Positions 10,368 to 45,078 of a stretch of 45,180 nt of DNA are shown piece after piece. The notes under the pieces were generated by a model. The model worked only from the letters and a program-made list of their open reading frames with translations. It searched no databases and was not told the origin of the DNA. The position numbers and the translations under genes were made by a program. The DNA comes from a virus, in the IMG/VR virus record IMGVR_UViG_3300033146_006838, positions 1-45,180 of that record; one strand, given 5' to 3'. Positions within the stretch are counted from its first letter, which is position 1; each line of letters starts with the position of its first letter.

Positions 10368-10781
10368 TTTTGTCAAAAATACAACATAAACAACAATATC
10401 TAAGCATTTTATAAAGGAAGTTATTAACATTATGAAAAAGTCTAATATGTGTCATTATTTATTAGACTTGCAAAAAAGGGTATATTATGGGAGTAAACTT
10501 TTTGGAAATCTCCGGTTTTTGTCATAATGGATTTTTCGGGGTTTAAAACTCTGTGTATCAGGATGCCCAACTTTGACAAAAACGTTTTCAGTTTTGTCAT
10601 AAAGTTTGGCAAAGTTTGGCAAAATGATATTTGAGAGGAAATATCGGAGCAGAAATATTTTTATGACAAAAAACAAATACTGTTTTGTCAGCAAAAAACT
10701 ATGTTTGTCAAAGTTTTGTCAAAATCGTAAAACATTGTTATTGAGTTGATAGCAAAAGAGTTTTATATTATTATGACAAAA
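10368..10781. promoter_or_regulatory. Cluster of TTTTGTCA/TGACAAAA motifs (operator array or origin candidate)
   Basis: This noncoding stretch holds nine copies of TTTTGTCA or its complement: 10368, 10517, 10574, 10592, 10664, 10683, 10704 (TTTGTCA only), 10714 and 10774. It also has a tandem TTTGGCAAAG/TTTGGCAAAA at 10604-10623. Copies occur in both orientations. Such iteron-like density in a 547-base gene-free region suggests a multi-site operator or a replication origin. A 69-codon minus-strand frame across it has low-complexity content and is not called. Confidence 0.55.
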
Positions 10782-10856: not shown

Positions 10857-10886
10857 AAGCCGCTGTTATTAATTTAACAGCGGCTT
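10857..10886 (-). terminator. Rho-independent terminator after the 82-aa gene
   Basis: AAGCCGCTGTTA and TAACAGCGGCTT form a perfect twelve-base-pair stem with a six-base loop. On the minus strand it is followed by TTTTTTAATG. It closes the transcript of the 10906-11154 gene. Confidence 0.85.
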
Positions 10887-10905: not shown

Positions 10906-11154
10906 TTAATTTTTAAGTGTCAGTAAATTCGATAATTTCTCAAAAAACTTACTGGAATTGCGATACAAATTCATAACTTTAAAACGGTTATGATTAAGCC
11001 GGGCATCGAAATCGGAACTGTAATGAAGGCTTTCAATTATATCCCAAAATGTTTGCTCGAATTCGTCGGCACTGTAAGTTTTTAGGAAATTTTCGGCAAG
11101 CTCTGTTATAGCTTGCTGCTGTTGCACGTTTGTGCAGGTTTTTGAATTATTCAT
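10906..11154 (-). CDS. Hypothetical protein downstream of a C4-like leader RNA
   Basis: The 82-residue product (MNNSKTCTNVQQQQAITELAEN...) matches no family I know. It is helical and mildly acidic, with aromatic residues in the middle (FEQTFWDIIESLHYSSDF). It is the only gene between a C4-like leader and a strong terminator, so it is a self-contained regulated unit. In P1/P7 the gene in this position is icd/ant, encoding a division inhibitor and antirepressor; a comparable role here would be inference. The leader's arm copy, TGACACACTC, ends a few bases before this start codon. Confidence 0.6.
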   Translation of the reverse strand: MNNSKTCTNVQQQQAITELAENFLKTYSADEFEQTFWDIIESLHYSSDFDARLNHNRFKVMNLYRNSSKFFEKLSNLLTLKN

Positions 11155-11185
11155 AAGAGTGTGTCATTTAACTCTGTGGGAGCAT

Positions 11186-11312
11186 AAAAAAAGCGGTGCT
11201 TCCACTTTCCGCTGACACACTCCTGCCAAAGGCATAAAGATACGCAAAGTTTCCACACCGCCTATATTTTGGACAGTTTGGGTTATATACCTTTGATTAT
11301 ACAGAAATGTGT
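11186..11312 (-). ncRNA. C4-like antisense leader RNA, copy C
   Basis: The order on the minus strand is as follows. A TACCTTTG -7 box (11318-11325), then arm 1 TGACACA (11308-11314). Arm 2 GCGGTG follows at 11256-11261, then the small hairpin TGCC-TTT-GGCA. Arm 1' GAGTGTGTCA is at 11213-11222, and arm 2' CACCGC (11193-11198) leads into seven T. After the T run comes arm 1'' TGACACACTC (11157-11166), just before the ATG. Arm 1' can pair with arm 1 or, over ten bases, with arm 1''. The 71-base core is close to the size of the P1 C4 RNA. No -33 box is evident. Confidence 0.65.
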
Positions 11313-11345
11313 CAATACAAAGGTATGAAAAATATTTTAATTATG

Positions 11346-12239: not shown

Positions 12240-12806
12240 TTACTTAAATAAATCTCTCATAAGATTAAGTTGTTGGGCATTTTCTGAACGGTTTAAATAA
12301 CCGTCTTTCTTATTTTCTTTTTCAAGTTTTTGATATTCTTTAAAATCTGAATTATCAATTAAGTTCATTTCAAGTTCAGCAAGCCGGTTCATTCGCTTTG
12401 CCTTATTCTCTAATCTTTGCTTTTGTTCGGCAAAGTGTCCAAAAATTAATTTTTCAATTGTCATATATATCCAAACTTCAAAATGCGGATTTAGCCATGC
12501 TGCAAATTTAAGTGATAGGCTTCTGTGCATAAATGTACCTGCATGACCTTTTGTTTGAATAATATCTTCTCTTTTTATTTCCTCTGAATTTACCCTTTTT
12601 GGGGTAAATTCAGATTTTTTATTTCCGCCATTTAGTGTAAATAAAAGTGCATCAATAAATGATTTTGTGTTGTCAGTTCTCAAAAAACGGTCTATCCTTT
12701 TGTCAAAAATTTTTGCCATTTGCGTAGCATTAACTTTTACGTCTCTGTCTCCGTTTAATTGAAACTCTATTTTGTGTTCGTTAAATTCATAAGTTATTGT
12801 GTCCAT
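12240..12806 (-). CDS. KilA-N domain protein (antirepressor-type)
   Basis: The KilA-N fold is clear. VNATQMAKIFDKRIDRFLRT opens the domain. Later the segments HAGTFMHRSLSLKFAAWLNP and HFEVWIYMTIEKLIFG give the G-T-F-M-H-x-x-L-x-x-x-F-A-A-W motif. KilA-N proteins bind DNA and are common as phage regulators and antirepressors. The C-terminal half is a coiled coil ending QLNLMRDLFK, a DLF-type ending like those of other antirepressors here. At 188 residues it is a full-length small member. It lies in the accessory region between integron-like cassettes and P22_AR_N genes. Confidence 0.75.
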   Translation of the reverse strand: MDTITYEFNEHKIEFQLNGDRDVKVNATQMAKIFDKRIDRFLRTDNTKSFIDALLFTLNGGNKKSEFTPKRVNSEEIKREDIIQTKGHAGTFMHRSLSLKFAAWLNPHFEVWIYMTIEKLIFGHFAEQKQRLENKAKRMNRLAELEMNLIDNSDFKEYQKLEKENKKDGYLNRSENAQQLNLMRDLFK

Positions 12807-13451: not shown

Positions 13452-13683
13452 TTTTAGTGTATTTAATTTTTTGAAATTCTTGGAATAATTTAAAATCTTC
13501 ATTTGTCATAAATTCAATAGCATCAATATAATTCGTTAGAATTGTATCTAAAAACATGTGTAAACTTTTGATTTTGTCTAATGAAAATTCTTTTGGCATA
13601 TTAATCATATTCATTTTTGAACTTTCCTCATTAGACAAAATCATTTTAATTAAACTCTCAATTTCTTGTTGTTTTGTTTGCAT
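13438..13683 (-). CDS. Hypothetical protein, 81 aa (cassette gene)
   Basis: A helical, charged protein (MQTKQQEIESLIKMILSNEE...) with no family I can name. Its stop lies inside the next gene, so the two are coupled. It sits between attC-like site 2 and partial site 3, consistent with a two-gene cassette. Upstream are 40 AT-rich bases separating it from site 2, with no clear promoter. Confidence 0.5.
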   Translation of the reverse strand: MQTKQQEIESLIKMILSNEESSKMNMINMPKEFSLDKIKSLHMFLDTILTNYIDAIEFMTNEDFKLFQEFQKIKYTKNENN

Positions 13684-22942: not shown

Positions 22943-23314
22943 GTGCTTAATACTAAAAAGATAGATGATTTAAGAAAATTAAAAGGACTAACAATTCCTG
23001 AATTGAGTGATTTGCTTTCAATAAATAAGGGAACTTACCATAATTTGCGAGGAAGTGGAGACTTTAGAGTAAGTCATTTAGAAAAATTGGCAGAAATATT
23101 TAAAATTGATGTGCGAGAGTTTTTTGAAGGAAACAGAGGTAATTCTCAAACAGCGAACGGAGACGGAATAACTCAAGCTATAAACGGTAATATATATAAA
23201 GCTGATTGCGAAAAATATAAGGCGGAAAATAAACAGCTTAAAGAGTTGTTGAAAGCGAAGGATGAGACTATAAAGAGTAAAGAGGAGTTAATTGAAATAT
23301 TGAAAAATAAATAG
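22943..23314 (+). CDS. XRE repressor (CI-like) with coiled-coil tail
   Basis: The N-terminal domain (MLNTKKIDDLRKLKGLTIPE then LSDLLSINKGTYHNLRGSGD) is a helix-turn-helix of XRE type, followed by LEKLAEIFKIDVREFFEG, the usual end of such domains. A short Ser/Asn-rich linker leads to a coiled coil (KYKAENKQLKELLKAKDETI) suited to dimerisation. There is no LexA-like peptidase, so induction would depend on antirepressors, of which this phage has several. The start codon is GTG. It is divergent from the early operon and next to the proposed operators, so it is the likely lysogeny repressor. Confidence 0.7.
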   Translation: MLNTKKIDDLRKLKGLTIPELSDLLSINKGTYHNLRGSGDFRVSHLEKLAEIFKIDVREFFEGNRGNSQTANGDGITQAINGNIYKADCEKYKAENKQLKELLKAKDETIKSKEELIEILKNK

Positions 23315-24159: not shown

Positions 24160-24360
24160 TGTATCGGGACAAAAACGGGACAAAACAGCAATAAACATAA
24201 ATCGTACTGATTTTTAAATAGCTGAAATATAGGAAAATACTAAAATTGATGGGGCAAAATAAAGTCCCGTTATTTACCCTTATTATCTTCGCAAACCTTA
24301 AAAAAAAAGGTTTGCGGAGTTTGTTTCAAAAAAAACGGGACAGAATCGGGACACAGGACT
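24160..24360. other. Probable attP region
   Basis: Two pairs of CGGGACA direct repeats flank this region: 24165 and 24176 upstream, 24336 and 24347 downstream. Within each pair the spacing is exactly 11 bases, one helical turn, as in arm-type integrase sites. Between them is a ten-base-pair inverted repeat, CGCAAACCTT/AAGGTTTGCG (24290-24299 and 24307-24316), a candidate core. A further GTCCCG lies at 24263. It is directly upstream of the tyrosine integrase gene. Confidence 0.6.
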
Positions 24361-24409: not shown

Positions 24410-25540
24410 ATGCCTACACTTTTCATAGATTACTTACCTGCAACACTTCACGAAAACAAAGATTGGTATATAAGTTATTACGTGAAAAACCCTGCAACAC
24501 AAAAATTAAAGCGAAAAAGGATAAAATTAAATAGGATAAAGAGTAAAATTCAACGCAGACGATATTCTAAAAAACTAATTCTTGAAATTAATAAAAAATT
24601 AGAAAATGGTTGGAACCCTTTTATTGAACAATCTGCACCAAAAGCTTATACTAATATTTTTGACATATACAAAATTTGGCTTGATGTGAAAAAAAAAGAA
24701 TTACGCGATGATAGTATGCGTGTTTATAAATCGTTCGTAACTATCATTACGAATTTTTTAAAAAAAAAGTCAAATACAGATGTTTATTATGTAATTAATT
24801 TTGATAAACGAACAGCGGTTGATTTTATGAACTATTTATATAATATTCGGAATGTTTCAGGAAGAACATATAATAGTTATTTGTCTTATGCGAATACTTT
24901 GTTTAATTGGATGCTTGAAAATTCTTATGTAAATAATAATCCGTTTCAGGGTATAAGAAAGAAAAAAGAAACAACAAAAAAAAGAGTTTTGATTCCTATT
25001 GAGGATAGAAAAAAAATTAAGAAATATTTATTGAAAAACGATAAATATTTCCTCGCAACCCTCATGCTTGAGTATTATGCGTTGCTTCGCCCTAAAGAAA
25101 TTTTAAATCTTGAAATAAAAAATTTTATGTTTGAAATTTCTTTAATATATGTGCCTGCTAAAGTGTCGAAAAACGGAAAAGAAAGATTAATTACTATATC
25201 TGATGCGTTATTACCATATTTAACCGTATTAAATCTTGATTTGCATGACAAATCGCTGATAGCTTTTTCTCAAAATTTAAGACCGGGAAAAAAAATAAAA
25301 CGTACGAAGTATATGGGATATCGTTGGAGTAATATGAGAAAAATTTTAAATTTTCCGGACACATATCACATGTATAGCTTGCGAGACAGCGGCATTGTAC
25401 AGATGTTACAAGACGGCATTAGTATTGATGAGGTAGCCAAGCAAGCTGATAACAGCTCGCTCGAAATGACTTCAAAATATGCACTTCATGCAAATAAGAA
25501 GGCTTCGGAACAGATATTAAAAAAATCATCAGAAATTTAA
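24410..25540 (+). CDS. Tyrosine-type integrase
   Basis: This 376-residue recombinase has an N-terminal arm-binding part, a SAM-like core-binding domain (DDSMRVYKSFVTIITNFLKK) and a C-terminal catalytic domain. Catalytic residues visible are R227 in YYALLRPKEIL, K254 or K257 in VSKNGKERL, R325 in MYSLRDSG and the nucleophile Y357 in MTSKYALH. The usual histidines are replaced: Y322 and D326 around the second arginine, and N348 in QADNSSLEM where relatives have H. Such changes occur in some Bacteroidetes phage integrases but three at once is notable. It sits next to the candidate attP. Confidence 0.8.
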   Translation: MPTLFIDYLPATLHENKDWYISYYVKNPATQKLKRKRIKLNRIKSKIQRRRYSKKLILEINKKLENGWNPFIEQSAPKAYTNIFDIYKIWLDVKKKELRDDSMRVYKSFVTIITNFLKKKSNTDVYYVINFDKRTAVDFMNYLYNIRNVSGRTYNSYLSYANTLFNWMLENSYVNNNPFQGIRKKKETTKKRVLIPIEDRKKIKKYLLKNDKYFLATLMLEYYALLRPKEILNLEIKNFMFEISLIYVPAKVSKNGKERLITISDALLPYLTVLNLDLHDKSLIAFSQNLRPGKKIKRTKYMGYRWSNMRKILNFPDTYHMYSLRDSGIVQMLQDGISIDEVAKQADNSSLEMTSKYALHANKKASEQILKKSSEI

Positions 25541-34707: not shown

Positions 34708-35238
34708 CTAATTATCAAATAAATCGAATTGAGCATTAACAATATTTTTATCCATTTCTTTGAGTTCTTTGCCTGTACGCATTACAGCTGCTTTTGCTTT
34801 CATAAGCTGCAAATAATCATCGTTCTCAATCAAGCGTTTTTCCATGTCTCTGTAAAGTTTTTGACTGTTTGTTTTTTCTTTCAAAATTTCACTGCGAAAT
34901 AAGACATTTCCGGTAACTGTGTTGAAAAGCGTATCTTCTGCCCAGTTGCGAAATATTCGTGCATTTTCGCTTTTTATTAAAAAACCGAGTCGCATTACTC
35001 CTCGCAATGTCCAAAAAATATTAGGTGCACTTCCTGATTTGCCGTCAGGATTCCTGACGACAAAATGTTTGTTTTCGACAAATTCTTTTGAGTTTGTCGA
35101 TTTGTGTTCGCGGACATTTTGCGGACTTACTTCATATCCTTTTGCAACTTGTTTTCCTGTAATTAAAAAAACATGAACAGGATGCGGATTCGCTAAGATT
35201 GTAAAATCGTCTGTAATTTGAACTAATTCTTTTTCCAT
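34708..35238 (-). CDS. ORF6N/Rha-like antirepressor
   Basis: The N-terminal half (KGYEVSPQNVREHKSTNSKE then NIFWTLRGVMRLGFLIKSEN) follows the ORF6N or Rha-type regulator pattern, with a W-T-x-x-G-V-x-R-L-G segment and A-R-I-F-R-N-W-A-E-D after it. The C-terminal coiled coil ends MDKNIVNAQFDLFDN. That ending nearly equals the tail of the P22_AR_N protein at 11346 (LDKDIVTGQYDLW), though their N-terminal domains differ. It has its own host-type promoter and terminator and lies directly before the tail genes. A transcription-regulator or antirepressor role is likely. Confidence 0.6.
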   Translation of the reverse strand: MEKELVQITDDFTILANPHPVHVFLITGKQVAKGYEVSPQNVREHKSTNSKEFVENKHFVVRNPDGKSGSAPNIFWTLRGVMRLGFLIKSENARIFRNWAEDTLFNTVTGNVLFRSEILKEKTNSQKLYRDMEKRLIENDDYLQLMKAKAAVMRTGKELKEMDKNIVNAQFDLFDN

Positions 35239-35317: not shown

Positions 35318-35341
35318 AAATAGTCGGCTTGTGTTTGCAAC

Positions 35342-35375
35342 AAAAACACGAATAAAATTCGATATTCGTGTTTTT
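35342..35375 (-). terminator. Terminator of cassette B
   Basis: AAAAACACGAAT and ATTCGTGTTTTT form a twelve-base-pair stem with a ten-base loop; T residues follow on both strands. It ends the transcript of the 35391-35669 gene. Confidence 0.75.
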
Positions 35376-35390
35376 GTGTGCCTGAATTGA

Positions 35391-35669
35391 TTATTTTTGC
35401 TCTACAATGGAAGTATCGTTTATTAAATCTTTGAACTCGTAAAGAGTTGTAAAAAAATTAATCTGTTCCCATTTATTATTAAGGGTATCCGGTTCTACAA
35501 TTAAATTAAGATTTGCAAAACGAATAGTTTTTTCAATACTGTGAGCCATTGACGGCAGTCCGTCAAAATGCGAATTGCTCTCGAAAATTAGATTAAAAAA
35601 AGGGCGAACGTTTACGAAATGTCCTGTTTCGGGGTGTTGAACCAATACCGGTTTTTGTCTATTTTGCAT
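35391..35669 (-). CDS. Cassette protein, 92 aa (paralog of 44349 gene)
   Basis: It shares almost its whole sequence with the 44349-44627 gene (both QKPVLVQHPETGHFVNVRPF...). Few substitutions separate them. No family is recognised; the sequence is mixed alpha/beta with HPETGHF and RPFFNLIF segments. It is the last gene of the cassette, coupled to the upstream 85-residue gene by a GAGGAGGCAAACCATG junction. Association with an antirepressor suggests a partner in the lytic switch, which is inference. Confidence 0.6.
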   Translation of the reverse strand: MQNRQKPVLVQHPETGHFVNVRPFFNLIFESNSHFDGLPSMAHSIEKTIRFANLNLIVEPDTLNNKWEQINFFTTLYEFKDLINDTSIVEQK

Positions 35670-35916
35670 GGTTTGCCTCCTCTTCTTTCAGCATTTTTAT
35701 TAATACGGCTTCAGACATTCTGCCTTTTGCAAAACAGGCATGATAAAGAGTAACCGAATAAGGCAGCTTCCCGTATTCAGGGCAAATAATTGAAACAGGG
35801 TCTTCGTTTGTTTCAAAGGAGTGTTCAAATACTTCGGAAATAAAATCTTCGAGATTGTTACATGCTAAGGTTTTAGTTTCCGTTTTGTAAATAATTTGAT
35901 ATTGTTTAGTTTGCAT
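35659..35916 (-). CDS. Cassette protein, 85 aa (paralog of 44617 gene)
   Basis: Almost identical over its length to the 91-residue gene at 44617 (YQIIYKTETKTLACNNLEDF versus YQIVYPTETKTLVCKNLENF). The segment CPEYGKLPYSVTLYHACFAK is conserved in both. Its C-terminus, KEEEANHAK, is also the C-terminus of the upstream antirepressor (KEEEANHAN). The preceding start is reached through an AGGAGG-containing junction. Function unknown. Confidence 0.6.
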   Translation of the reverse strand: MQTKQYQIIYKTETKTLACNNLEDFISEVFEHSFETNEDPVSIICPEYGKLPYSVTLYHACFAKGRMSEAVLIKMLKEEEANHAK

Positions 35917-36475
35917 GGTTTGCCTCCTCTTCTTTTGCTTCCAAATCGGTTATGAGTGCTGTGTTATCAATTTTCCAATCATCGAAAGATACTGCACGCA
36001 CTTGGTTAAGGTCTTTTTTTGAAACTGAAAGCCTGTCTTTAGCTGTTTTGAACTGTTTTTGGATTATTTGATAATTGTCTAAACGGGCAGAAATTGCGTC
36101 TTGTTTTTGCTCAAGAAAACTACTGTGCTCGATGAAGTGGCGATACAGGGCGTTGTAACATTCAAGTTGATACTTGAGAACTGCCTCTGCTGCTTCCGGT
36201 TTTACTTTGCGGGCATCAATTGAAAATAACCAACCGAATACAAACTTGTATGGAATAGTTACCATTTCTCTGTCTTTTCCGTCGGCTCCAACTGTGACCA
36301 TGATGGTCATAGTTGAACTTAAAATCGGATGTTCTTTTATTTTCCGGATTTGAACTTCATGTGAAACTCCGAGAGCTTCGCAAATTGGTTTTACGGCAAT
36401 ACGTTTTTCGCCGTCGTGGATTAGCACAATATCAACCTCGTTGATTCGTGCTACTGTTTTTGAATTTTTAATCAT
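35906..36475 (-). CDS. Antirepressor, P22_AR_N type (copy 2 of 3)
   Basis: The start at 36475 (MIKNSKTVARINEVDIVLIH) is chosen because a longer frame reads through the leader RNA. The AVKPICEALGVSHEVQIRKI segment and later KFVFGWLFSIDARKVKPEAA match the P22_AR_N pattern seen in its paralog at 43651. A coiled coil follows. It is preceded by a C4-like leader whose arm lies against this start codon, the situation of the P1 antirepressor. It ends in a shared EEEANHAN junction with the 85-residue gene. Confidence 0.7.
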   Translation of the reverse strand: MIKNSKTVARINEVDIVLIHDGEKRIAVKPICEALGVSHEVQIRKIKEHPILSSTMTIMVTVGADGKDREMVTIPYKFVFGWLFSIDARKVKPEAAEAVLKYQLECYNALYRHFIEHSSFLEQKQDAISARLDNYQIIQKQFKTAKDRLSVSKKDLNQVRAVSFDDWKIDNTALITDLEAKEEEANHAN

Positions 36476-36502
36476 AACTCTTTTGACATTTATGTGATTA
36501 AT

Positions 36503-36653
36503 AAAAAAAGCGTTGAGTTTGGCTGTCAAAAGAGTAGTTCGAGAACTAATACTTAACCAAAAACAACGCCCATATTTTTAGAAAAATATTGACTTGTTAA
36601 AAATAAAAAATCCGTAACATTTATAGTAGTACGGATAGTTACTACTCTTTTGA
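36503..36653 (-). ncRNA. C4-like antisense leader RNA, copy B
   Basis: Minus-strand order: TATATTTG (36659-36666), arm 1 TGTCAAAAGAGTAGT (36641-36655), a hairpin ATCCGTA/TACGGAT with T6, then arm 2 GCGTTGTTTTTGG (36557-36569). A small GTTC-TC-GAAC hairpin follows, then arm 1' ACTACTCTTTTGACA (36524-36538), and arm 2' CCAAACTCAACGC (36510-36522) leading to T7. Arm 1'' TGTCAAAAGAGT (36477-36488) is next to the ATG. Arm 1 and 1' pair over 15 bases; 1' and 1'' over 12. The core is 60 bases. Confidence 0.75.
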
Positions 36654-36658
36654 CATTG

Positions 36659-36689
36659 CAAATATAATTCAAAAATATTAGAATCCAAA
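36659..36689 (-). promoter_or_regulatory. Host-type promoter of leader B
   Basis: TTTG (36686-36689), 19 bases, TATATTTG (36659-36666). Both boxes are perfect. Arm 1 of the C4-like leader begins four bases downstream, at or next to the expected start point. Confidence 0.75.
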
Positions 36690-43650: not shown

Positions 43651-44217
43651 CTAATTTTCCTTTTCAAAATCAGCATCTTTAAACAAATCTCCCTGCATAT
43701 CATCTGCCTGCCACTCTTCAAAAGAATAATGAGTTATATCTTTCAATTTTTTTCTTCCGTCTGCAAGTGCGTTTTTAGCATCATTAAAATTCTTCCTGAT
43801 ATCGTCAAGTTTCTCTTGCTGTTTTTCCATTGCTGTTTGTTTTTCCTGAAGGAATTTACTTTGTGAAGTAAAATGATCATACAAGGCTTTATAACATTCA
43901 ATACGATATTTACTGACAGACTCCTTTGCTTCTTCTTTTACGTTTTTTGGGTTAATTGTAAACAACCAACCAAAGACGTACATGTACGGTATTGTTGTCA
44001 TTTTATACTCTTTTCCGTCTCGTCCAGTTACGGTGCTGAGCACCGCAACTGATTTTAGAATTTCATCATTATTTATTTTCTGTCTTTGAGAACTTTCATT
44101 AATTCCGAGAATCTCACAAATAGGTTTTATCGGCACATACTTTTCGCCGTTTTTTATCATCATTGTAATAGATACTTCATTAATTTTTGCTACTGTTTTT
44201 AAATTTTTAGATTTCAT
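43651..44217 (-). CDS. Antirepressor, P22_AR_N type (copy 3 of 3)
   Basis: Its first half (MKSKNLKTVAKINEVSITMM then VPIKPICEILGINESSQRQK, later PYMYVFGWLFTINPKNVKEE) aligns by eye with the 35906 and 11346 proteins, and carries the conserved K-P-I-C-E-x-L core. A coiled coil follows. The C-terminal region (HYSFEEWQADDMQGDLFKDA) resembles the Q-x-D-L-F ending of the other antirepressors. It has a host-type promoter and terminator of its own. A role in prophage induction, by sequestering the repressor, is inferred from the family. Confidence 0.7.
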   Translation of the reverse strand: MKSKNLKTVAKINEVSITMMIKNGEKYVPIKPICEILGINESSQRQKINNDEILKSVAVLSTVTGRDGKEYKMTTIPYMYVFGWLFTINPKNVKEEAKESVSKYRIECYKALYDHFTSQSKFLQEKQTAMEKQQEKLDDIRKNFNDAKNALADGRKKLKDITHYSFEEWQADDMQGDLFKDADFEKEN

Positions 44218-44275: not shown

Positions 44276-44299
44276 AAATAGTCGGCTTATGTTTGCGAC

Positions 44300-44333
44300 A
44301 AAAACACGAATAAAACTGAATATTCGTGTTTTT
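44300..44333 (-). terminator. Terminator of cassette A
   Basis: AAAAACACGAAT and ATTCGTGTTTTT, the same stem as at 35342-35375. It ends the 44349-44627 transcript. Confidence 0.75.
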
Positions 44334-44348
44334 GTGTGCTGTAATTGA

Positions 44349-44627
44349 TTATTTTCGCTCTATAATAGAAGTCTCGTTTATTAAATCTTTGAATTCGTAC
44401 AGAGTTGTAAAGAAATTAATCTGTTCCCATTTACTTTCAAGAGTATCCGGTTCTACTATTAAATTAAGATTTGCAAAACGGATAGTTTTTTCAATACTGT
44501 AAGCCATTGACGGCAGTCCGTCAAGATGCGAGTTGCTCTCAAAAATTAAATTAAAAAAAGGGCGAACGTTTACGAAGTGTCCTGTTTCGGGGTGTTGAAC
44601 CAATACCGGTTTTTGTTTAGTTTTCAT
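44349..44627 (-). CDS. Cassette protein, 92 aa (paralog of 35391 gene)
   Basis: Nearly identical to the 35391 gene, with substitutions spread along the protein (FDGLPSMAHSI versus LDGLPSMAYSI). The AGGAGG junction precedes its start as in copy B. Conservation between the two copies suggests a real function. None is assigned. Confidence 0.6.
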   Translation of the reverse strand: MKTKQKPVLVQHPETGHFVNVRPFFNLIFESNSHLDGLPSMAYSIEKTIRFANLNLIVEPDTLESKWEQINFFTTLYEFKDLINETSIIERK

Positions 44628-44892
44628 GGTTTGCCTCCTTTTCTTTAAGCATTTTTATTAATACGGCTTCTGATATTCTGCCTTTTGCAAAACAGGCATG
44701 ATAAAGAGTAACAGAATAAGGCAACTTACCGTATTCCGGACAAATAATTGAAACAGGGTCTTCGTCTCTTTCAAAGGAGTTTTCAAATACTTCGGAAATA
44801 AAATTTTCGAGATTCTTACAGACTAAGGTTTTAGTCTCCGTTGGGTAAACAATTTGATATTGTTTACGTTCTTTTTTCGTTTGTTGTAGCAT
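44617..44892 (-). CDS. Cassette protein, 91 aa, first gene under leader A
   Basis: The first codons (ATG CTA CAA CAA ACG) are themselves the third copy of the leader arm, GCTACAACAAACG. Pairing with the leader would hide this start. The rest is homologous to the 85-residue gene at 35659. Its C-terminus (KEKEANHEN) leads into the AGGAGG junction with the next gene. Function unknown. As the first target of the C4-like leader it occupies the place of icd in P1. Confidence 0.6.
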   Translation of the reverse strand: MLQQTKKERKQYQIVYPTETKTLVCKNLENFISEVFENSFERDEDPVSIICPEYGKLPYSVTLYHACFAKGRISEAVLIKMLKEKEANHEN

Positions 44893-44915
44893 TTTAATAA
44901 AAATTAGGAATTAAT

Positions 44916-45041
44916 AAAAAAGAGAGGGGGTCGCTACAACAAACGATTTATTTACCAAAGGTAAGAAATCTCCCCTCTCAATATTTTGATTTTCTTATTT
45001 TTCTATAAATTAATTTTTAGTAAATATTACGTTTATTGTAG
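44916..45041 (-). ncRNA. C4-like antisense leader RNA, copy A
   Basis: Minus-strand order: arm 1 GCTACAATAAACG (45030-45042) just after the TATATTTG box, then arm 2 GAGAGGGG (44972-44979). Hairpin TTACC-TTT-GGTAA (44952-44964) follows, then arm 1' CGTTTGTTGTAGC (44933-44945), arm 2' CCCCTCTC (44922-44929) and T6. Arm 1'' GCTACAACAAACG (44878-44890) covers the first codons. Arm 1' pairs perfectly with 1'' (13 bases) and with arm 1 through one G-U pair. The core is 58 bases. Confidence 0.75.
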
Positions 45042-45046
45042 CACTG

Positions 45047-45078
45047 CAAATATACGACAAAAAAAATAAGCCTGCAAA
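45047..45078 (-). promoter_or_regulatory. Host-type promoter of leader A
   Basis: TTTG (45075-45078), 20 bases, TATATTTG (45047-45054). Both boxes and the spacer are consensus. The TTTG lies inside a stretch shared with the terminator at 37318. The rest of the window to 45180 holds no gene I can see. Confidence 0.75.

Follow-up and report, generated by a model that had tools for sequence, protein, structure and literature searches.

Putative C4-like antisense RNA leaders with co-varying arms and predicted terminators at antirepressor operons of Bacteroidota phages

Three leaders in a phage genome, together with their homologues in related phages, are best explained as a C4-like antisense RNA that controls antirepressor synthesis and is fused to an intrinsic terminator, a reading that rests on sequence comparison and predicted folds and to which we assign a probability of roughly 0.7. 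The phage is a virus record in IMG/VR (IMGVR_UViG_3300033146_006838), and the whole stretch of 45,180 nt that was analysed is referred to here as the window. The leaders share a conserved layout: the promoter is followed by arm1 where the transcript begins, often by an early terminator-like hairpin, and then by a stem-loop core that carries arm2 and by a T run; arm3 comes last and overlies the start codon of an operon, in many cases one encoding an antirepressor. From locus to locus the three arms change in concert, and leaders in one genome have different arms. C4-type antirepressor control has been described for proteobacterial phages, and the switch reported here looks like a widespread and apparently undescribed cousin of the antisense RNA by which phage P1 silences its antirepressor.

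Leader 1 lies on the minus strand and reads from 45077 downwards. Its promoter, as read from the sequence (45047-45077), is of the Bacteroidota -33/-7 type, with TTG at 45077-45075 followed after 20 nt by TATATTTG at 45054-45047. Directly 3' of this TAnnTTTG promoter comes arm1 (TGCTACAAtAAACG), delimited by the detector described below as TGCTACAATAAACG (45030-45043; arm2 duplex of -19.1 kcal/mol) and forming the predicted 5' end of the transcript; the arm1 copy GCTACAATAAACG, 3-4 bases past TATATTTG, carries a single C-to-T change with pairing kept as G-U. An A+T-rich stretch lies between arm1 and GAGAGGGG (44972-44979), the 5' strand of core stem P1, and is succeeded by a small inner hairpin, TTACC-TTT-GGTAA (44952-44964, from the fold of the isolated core), by the antisense arm arm2, CGTTTGTTGTAGCG (44932-44945), and by the 3' strand of P1, CCCCTCTC plus TTTTTT, an intrinsic-terminator-like end (44916-44929). 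The arm2 segment CGTTTGTTGTAGC (44945-44933) is the complement of the start-codon arm and sits in the loop formed by GAGAGGGG, CCCCTCTC and TTTTTT. About 23 nt separate TTTTTT from ATG CTA CAA CAA ACG, and arm3 lies inside ATG CTA CAA CAA ACG A (44877-44892; arm2 duplex of -22.8 kcal/mol). The sequence-only reading had taken this pairing arm to be coding sequence as well, which holds: the ATG at 44892 on the minus strand opens a 91-aa ORF (44617-44892), with arm3 covering its start and first codons.

Two further leaders with the same arm order and unrelated arms, also proposed in that reading, were read directly at 36666-36475 and 11325-11155, both on the minus strand. Leader 2 comprises the promoter element TATATTTG (36659-36666), arm1 TGTCAAAAGAGTAGT (36641-36655), an early terminator-like hairpin T1, ATCCGTA...TACGGAT with TTTTTATT (36602-36636), a core running from GGGCGTTG to CAACGC and a T run (36502-36571), which encloses the hairpin AGTTCTCGAACT and arm2 ACTACTCTTTTGACA (36538-36524), and arm3 ATGTCAAAAGAGT (36477-36489), a five-codon ORF (MSKEL) ending in a TGA that overlaps the ATG of the antirepressor at 36475. 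Leader 3 has the promoter element TACCTTTG (11318-11325), arm1 TTGACACATTTCTGT (11301-11315), a core from GGCGGTGT to GCACCGC and a T run (11184-11263) enclosing arm2 GCAGGAGTGTGTCAG (11226-11212), and arm3 ATGACACACTCTT (11155-11167), just upstream of the start of an 82-aa ORF (11154). The small hairpin and the T run are present in all three leaders as claimed, while the spacing, said to be identical, proved only similar, with arm1-arm2 gaps of 83, 102 and 74 nt. A detector requiring a TAnnTTTG-like site, arm1, a complementary arm2, a T run and arm3 scored the three at 64.5, 63 and 56.5. Among 400 dinucleotide-preserving shuffles of the window none reached the weakest leader, the top score being 46, and the plus strand gave 39. 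A fourth detector site in the window (34389, reverse strand) was dropped as a chance match or coding repeat, and a 16-bp inverted repeat at 13569-13643 is not a leader, being inside a coding region.

The three arm sets of the window are computationally orthogonal, with own arm2:arm3 duplexes of -22.8, -16.5 and -19.0 kcal/mol and cross pairs never stronger than -5.6. Over all leaders the median arm2:arm3 duplex is -19.4 kcal/mol for own and -6.2 kcal/mol for foreign partners, and 37 of 40 arm2 sequences prefer their own arm3 in computed duplexes. Other genomes with two to four elements have different barcodes (the variable bases of the arms) too, and separation is weaker in some same-genome pairs, such as those of genome G530 (-13.5 to -14.3 kcal/mol).

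We scanned the window together with 134 loci from antirepressor relatives in genomes of IMG/VR and GTDB, among which almost all that carry a name are Bacteroidota, and at a score of at least 48 the detector returned 44 leaders on the sense strand versus 1 on the opposite strand. Compensatory change, which the structure proposed from the window alone would predict among homologous leaders, was found: the 41 distinct leaders among the 44, nearly each with its own arm sequence in the common order, keep three-way complementarity while their sequences differ. In the close pair L013/L014, all three arms have changed together (TGTCTATCA/TGATAGACA/TGTCTATCA versus TGCTTATCA/TGATAAGCA/TGCTTATCA). Most homologous leaders have the start of arm3 inside an ATG, and a strong stem around arm2 is usually followed by a T run; a T-rich tail after the core stem occurs in most of 40 leaders, including all three of the window, many cores begin with GG, and 28 of the 40 carry an early terminator-like hairpin between arm1 and core (4.6 expected from shuffles). 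The promoter site present in every detector leader is a requirement of the detector, while the TTTG+3 register is independent in the leaders found with the covariance model described below. Detector matches in L051-L054, L036 and L080 and at the second site of L037 and L129 were set aside as chance or coding repeats, L017 and L019 were dropped for want of a credible arm3, and a leader peptide suggested by a long open frame through L028 was rejected by eye, the frame not being kept in L006.

Near-perfect repeats of 9-15 bp around a promoter are also what phage repressor proteins bind, and the arms might accordingly be read as DNA operators, with direct copies at the promoter and the start codon and an inverted copy in the leader. 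How the arms diverge makes this highly improbable. Just beyond the common core, arm1 forms a wobble and arm3 a Watson-Crick pair with arm2 in 20 cases and the reverse in 1, typically with U in arm1 (often within CAUUU) and C in arm3, both opposite a G of arm2, as at 45030-45043 of the window; differences between arm1 and arm3 thus mostly keep arm2 pairing through G-U. Since both versions still pair arm2, the pattern is one expected for RNA and not for protein operators. Hypervariable barcodes stand beside an RNA stem and T run that compensatory change has kept, and most leaders hold arm3 fixed on the ATG, neither of which fits a set of repressor sites.

An independent test came from class B, the subclass with GTACCCCCGTGTGGAGCGTTAATGCGCCCAC... 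in the core, of which 12 leaders were aligned. RNAalifold gave 26 pairs for the class B core, 21 of them with compensatory changes, and a covariance model built from this core alone found further elements in other genomes. In a free search for arms around 29 core-model elements, arm1 was recovered in 26, arm3 in 17 and both in 16, against a background of 8%, 13% and 2%, respectively, when core and flanks came from different loci. In a fixed-register test, where the promoter TTTG and the ATG set the register and five variable bases were scored, the barcode of core-model leaders was matched by arm1 in 22/27 (2.8% at other loci) and by arm3 in 12/27 (3.4%). The weaker recovery of arm3 than of arm1 among core-model elements counts against the antisense reading. 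Covariation as a sign of conserved structure, which had been argued from three leaders, is borne out by 26 distinct barcodes in 34 fixed-register leaders. Every one of them pairs by Watson-Crick rules, and the four pair types all occur at barcode positions 4 and 5. The class B core was found in 13/201 genomes sampled from the family of the centre genome (G007, an uncultured Bacteroides sp.) and in 4/395 sampled from its phylum, counts that include the centre genome and were made with strict filters, and its distribution is patchy, as expected for prophages. The window leaders are not class B: the class B core model (R1) had no match in the window. Their predicted folds have fewer inner helices, with arm2 only partly unpaired. 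A related antirepressor is also present in the isolated Polaribacter phage Leef_1, which had no core-model match. At L162 (positions 1422-1572), a single leader holds two class B cores in tandem. The second core agrees with arm1 and arm3 of that leader; the first bears another barcode (TGTCCTTCA...), for which no matching arm was seen there, and might be an antisense RNA directed against a different phage.

In the proposed mechanism, the transcript of each leader would contain both a C4-like antisense RNA and the target of that RNA. When the antisense RNA is absent, as in a fresh infection or upon induction, nascent arm1 would pair with arm2, pre-empting the core terminator and hiding arm2, such that transcription reads through, arm3 stays free and antirepressor is made. 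When the core RNA is present, as in a lysogen, its arm2 would bind arm1 of new transcripts, the terminator would form and more core RNA would result; the same arm2 would bind arm3 of any read-through mRNA, blocking initiation and silencing the antirepressor, and the barcode would determine which phage or operon is recognised. C4-type start-codon silencing in trans is the better supported half of this scheme, and trans action is inferred because of barcode diversity; the attenuation feedback is the more speculative half. The scheme gives no part to the early terminator-like hairpin of many leaders, which counts against it. By sequence, the leaders have the stem and T run of a predicted intrinsic terminator and the competing arm1:arm2 pairing of an attenuator, and arm1:arm2 is more stable than the core stem in 35 of 40 predicted leader folds (median margin 6.5 kcal/mol), a result partly conditioned by the detector, which favours strong arm1:arm2 duplexes. 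The attenuation step is suggested by this predicted ranking of arm1:arm2 above the core terminator.

The main rival is a purely cis-acting, riboswitch-like attenuator, with arm1:arm2 as antiterminator against the core terminator, arm2:arm3 hiding the start, and no free antisense RNA. It would account for arms that all lie on one transcript and for arm1:arm2 and core stem being predicted as mutually exclusive, with arm1:arm2 usually winning. We nonetheless regard it as unlikely, as it leaves unexplained why 34 leaders with a shared core have 26 barcodes and why elements of one genome have different ones; moreover, the core T run precedes arm3, which makes a free arm2 RNA a natural product, and phage P1, with the same order of parts, has an annotated C4 antisense RNA. 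Extending the antisense reading, one can picture a self-reinforcing memory of lysogeny, in which the core binds the 5' end of its own nascent precursor, forces termination at its own stem, so yielding more core RNA, and blocks the antirepressor start. The hypervariable 5-base barcode would sort Bacteroidota phages into RNA immunity groups, and an extra core whose barcode lacks a matching arm in its own leader, as in the tandem of L162, would possibly target other phages; this extension is tentative, and we consider it doubtful as a whole.

The likeness to phage P1 is detailed. The P1 record annotates the order a1, b1, a 77-nt C4 RNA, a2, b2, icd and ant, and the leaders here repeat the order of a1(b1), structured RNA, a2(b2), small gene and antirepressor, with a counterpart of b1 in only some leaders and none of b2 seen. 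As in the C4 RNAs of P1 and P7, a variable arm gives specificity, and the antisense arm comes after the inner hairpin(s) and ahead of the outer stem's 3' strand. C4 has two such hairpins and a single-stranded arm; the predicted class B consensus has an outer stem, two inner helices and then arm2, and the window leaders have fewer inner helices. P1 itself (L044:20283-20317, NC_005856) has a terminator-like hairpin between b1 and C4, ACCGCAG...TTGCGGT followed by ATTTTTG, at the position of the early hairpin in 28/40 Bacteroidota leaders. The leaders here differ from P1 in coming from another phylum, in a long and contiguous arm2, in an arm3 that covers the AUG itself, and in a core stem that usually ends in an intrinsic-terminator T run; the predicted P1 leader fold keeps the C4 stem, whereas arm1:arm2 can out-compete the core stem here.

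These likenesses (the same part order, the same kind of regulated gene, and a two-inner-hairpin class that shares the P1-P2-P3-arm2 topology) could also mean that the leaders are true members of the P1 C4 family (RF01695), processed by RNase P, whose cut before GGW makes the 5' end of C4, and diverged past the reach of its model. The family model detects phage P1 at 68.8 bits (51 bits for c4-a1b1), yet at cut-offs up to E=10 it matched none of the three leaders of the window, nor L028 of class B, and no C4 match at the gathering threshold was obtained in seven related loci. RF03163 (c4-a1b1) had no match in the window, nor up to E=10 in the leaders, and Rfam as a whole, at gathering thresholds and at E<=10, yielded chance matches only. 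Phage P1 shows neither the T run that usually ends the core here nor an arm1 able to out-compete the stem, and true membership is quite unlikely. The label C4-like in the sequence-only reading therefore stands for layout and target gene but not for family membership.

Other phage RNAs offer partial parallels to the antisense reading. The sar RNA of Salmonella phage P22 silences Ant by antisense pairing, and the N-terminal family of Ant, P22_AR_N, is also found here; sar has its own promoter and is not known as a barcode RNA placed within its target's leader. In the phage-plasmid N15, as summarised from Ravin 1999 in PMC10432266, a small processed RNA controls the antirepressor; it likewise silences a phage antirepressor, but N15 is a proteobacterial phage and is likened here by description. 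The C4 RNAs of P1 and P7 are set apart by a 4-nt difference according to work that PMC5320573 cites, and the Group 1 C4-like sRNAs of Acinetobacter baumannii comprise many C4-fold RNAs per genome with differing specificity loops (PMC5320573); unlike the leaders here, they match Rfam C4, are chromosomal and are proteobacterial. The 2010 survey reported C4 for Proteobacteria and phages only (PMC2864571), and we found no description of a Bacteroidota C4 in Rfam 15 or among the open-access papers searched. The present leaders would bring C4 logic to phages of Bacteroidota, gut genera among them, where the barcodes co-vary by the dozen and a genome can hold several independent copies. Such barcodes point to RNA-coded superinfection immunity groups in Bacteroidota; a readable code of about five variable bases, given thrice per class B leader, could allow phage cross-immunity to be predicted. 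The leaders also offer a possible natural template, simple in design, for orthogonal RNA switches in bacteria that start translation without reliance on strong Shine-Dalgarno sequences.

Antirepressors of P22 type occur in two of the three leader operons of the window, all on the minus strand. Leader 1 is followed by two small ORFs without known family, of 91 aa (44617-44892) and 92 aa (44349-44627), and then by a second P22_AR_N antirepressor (43651-44217; PF10547, E=1.7e-30; phrog_524, 1.8e-34), while the P22_AR_N antirepressor with its true ATG at 36475 (35906-36475; PF10547, E=1.9e-29) lies directly behind leader 2. The two modules are paralogous, with the 91-aa ORF 84% identical to an 85-aa ORF at 35659-35916 and the antirepressors 45% identical; relatives of the 91-aa protein were found in neither viral contigs nor phage records. 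Leader 3 is followed by a lone 82-aa ORF of no known family (10906-11154) and a terminator-like hairpin (10857-10886), and among the wider set the first gene behind the leader is an antirepressor in 5/36 only, the rest being small ORFs without family. Both the lone ORF and the scarcity of antirepressor first genes count against the reading as antirepressor control. On the plus strand, a C1/Cro-type HTH repressor gene (22943-23314; phrog_3, 1e-8; HTH_26, 2.8e-4, just below Pfam's cut-off) is a candidate antirepressor partner, and a tyrosine integrase (24410-25540; PF00589, 4.5e-14) marks the phage as temperate; the window also holds a DnaG-type primase gene.

Several minor features accompany these genes. 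More antirepressor-like genes (KilA-N; Bro-N/RhuM-like) at 12240-12806 and 34708-35238 bring the phage total to at least four. An identical 15-bp hairpin, ACAAAAACACGAATA...TATTCGTGTTTTTGT, precedes the last antirepressor-like gene of each duplicated module (35340-35377 and 44298-44335). A cluster of TTTTGTCA/TGACAAAA repeats in both orientations at 10515-10781 is iteron- or operator-like, and AACGGGAC/GTCCCGTT motifs that recur at 24162-24350, immediately upstream of the gene for the integrase, are possibly operators or integrase arm sites.
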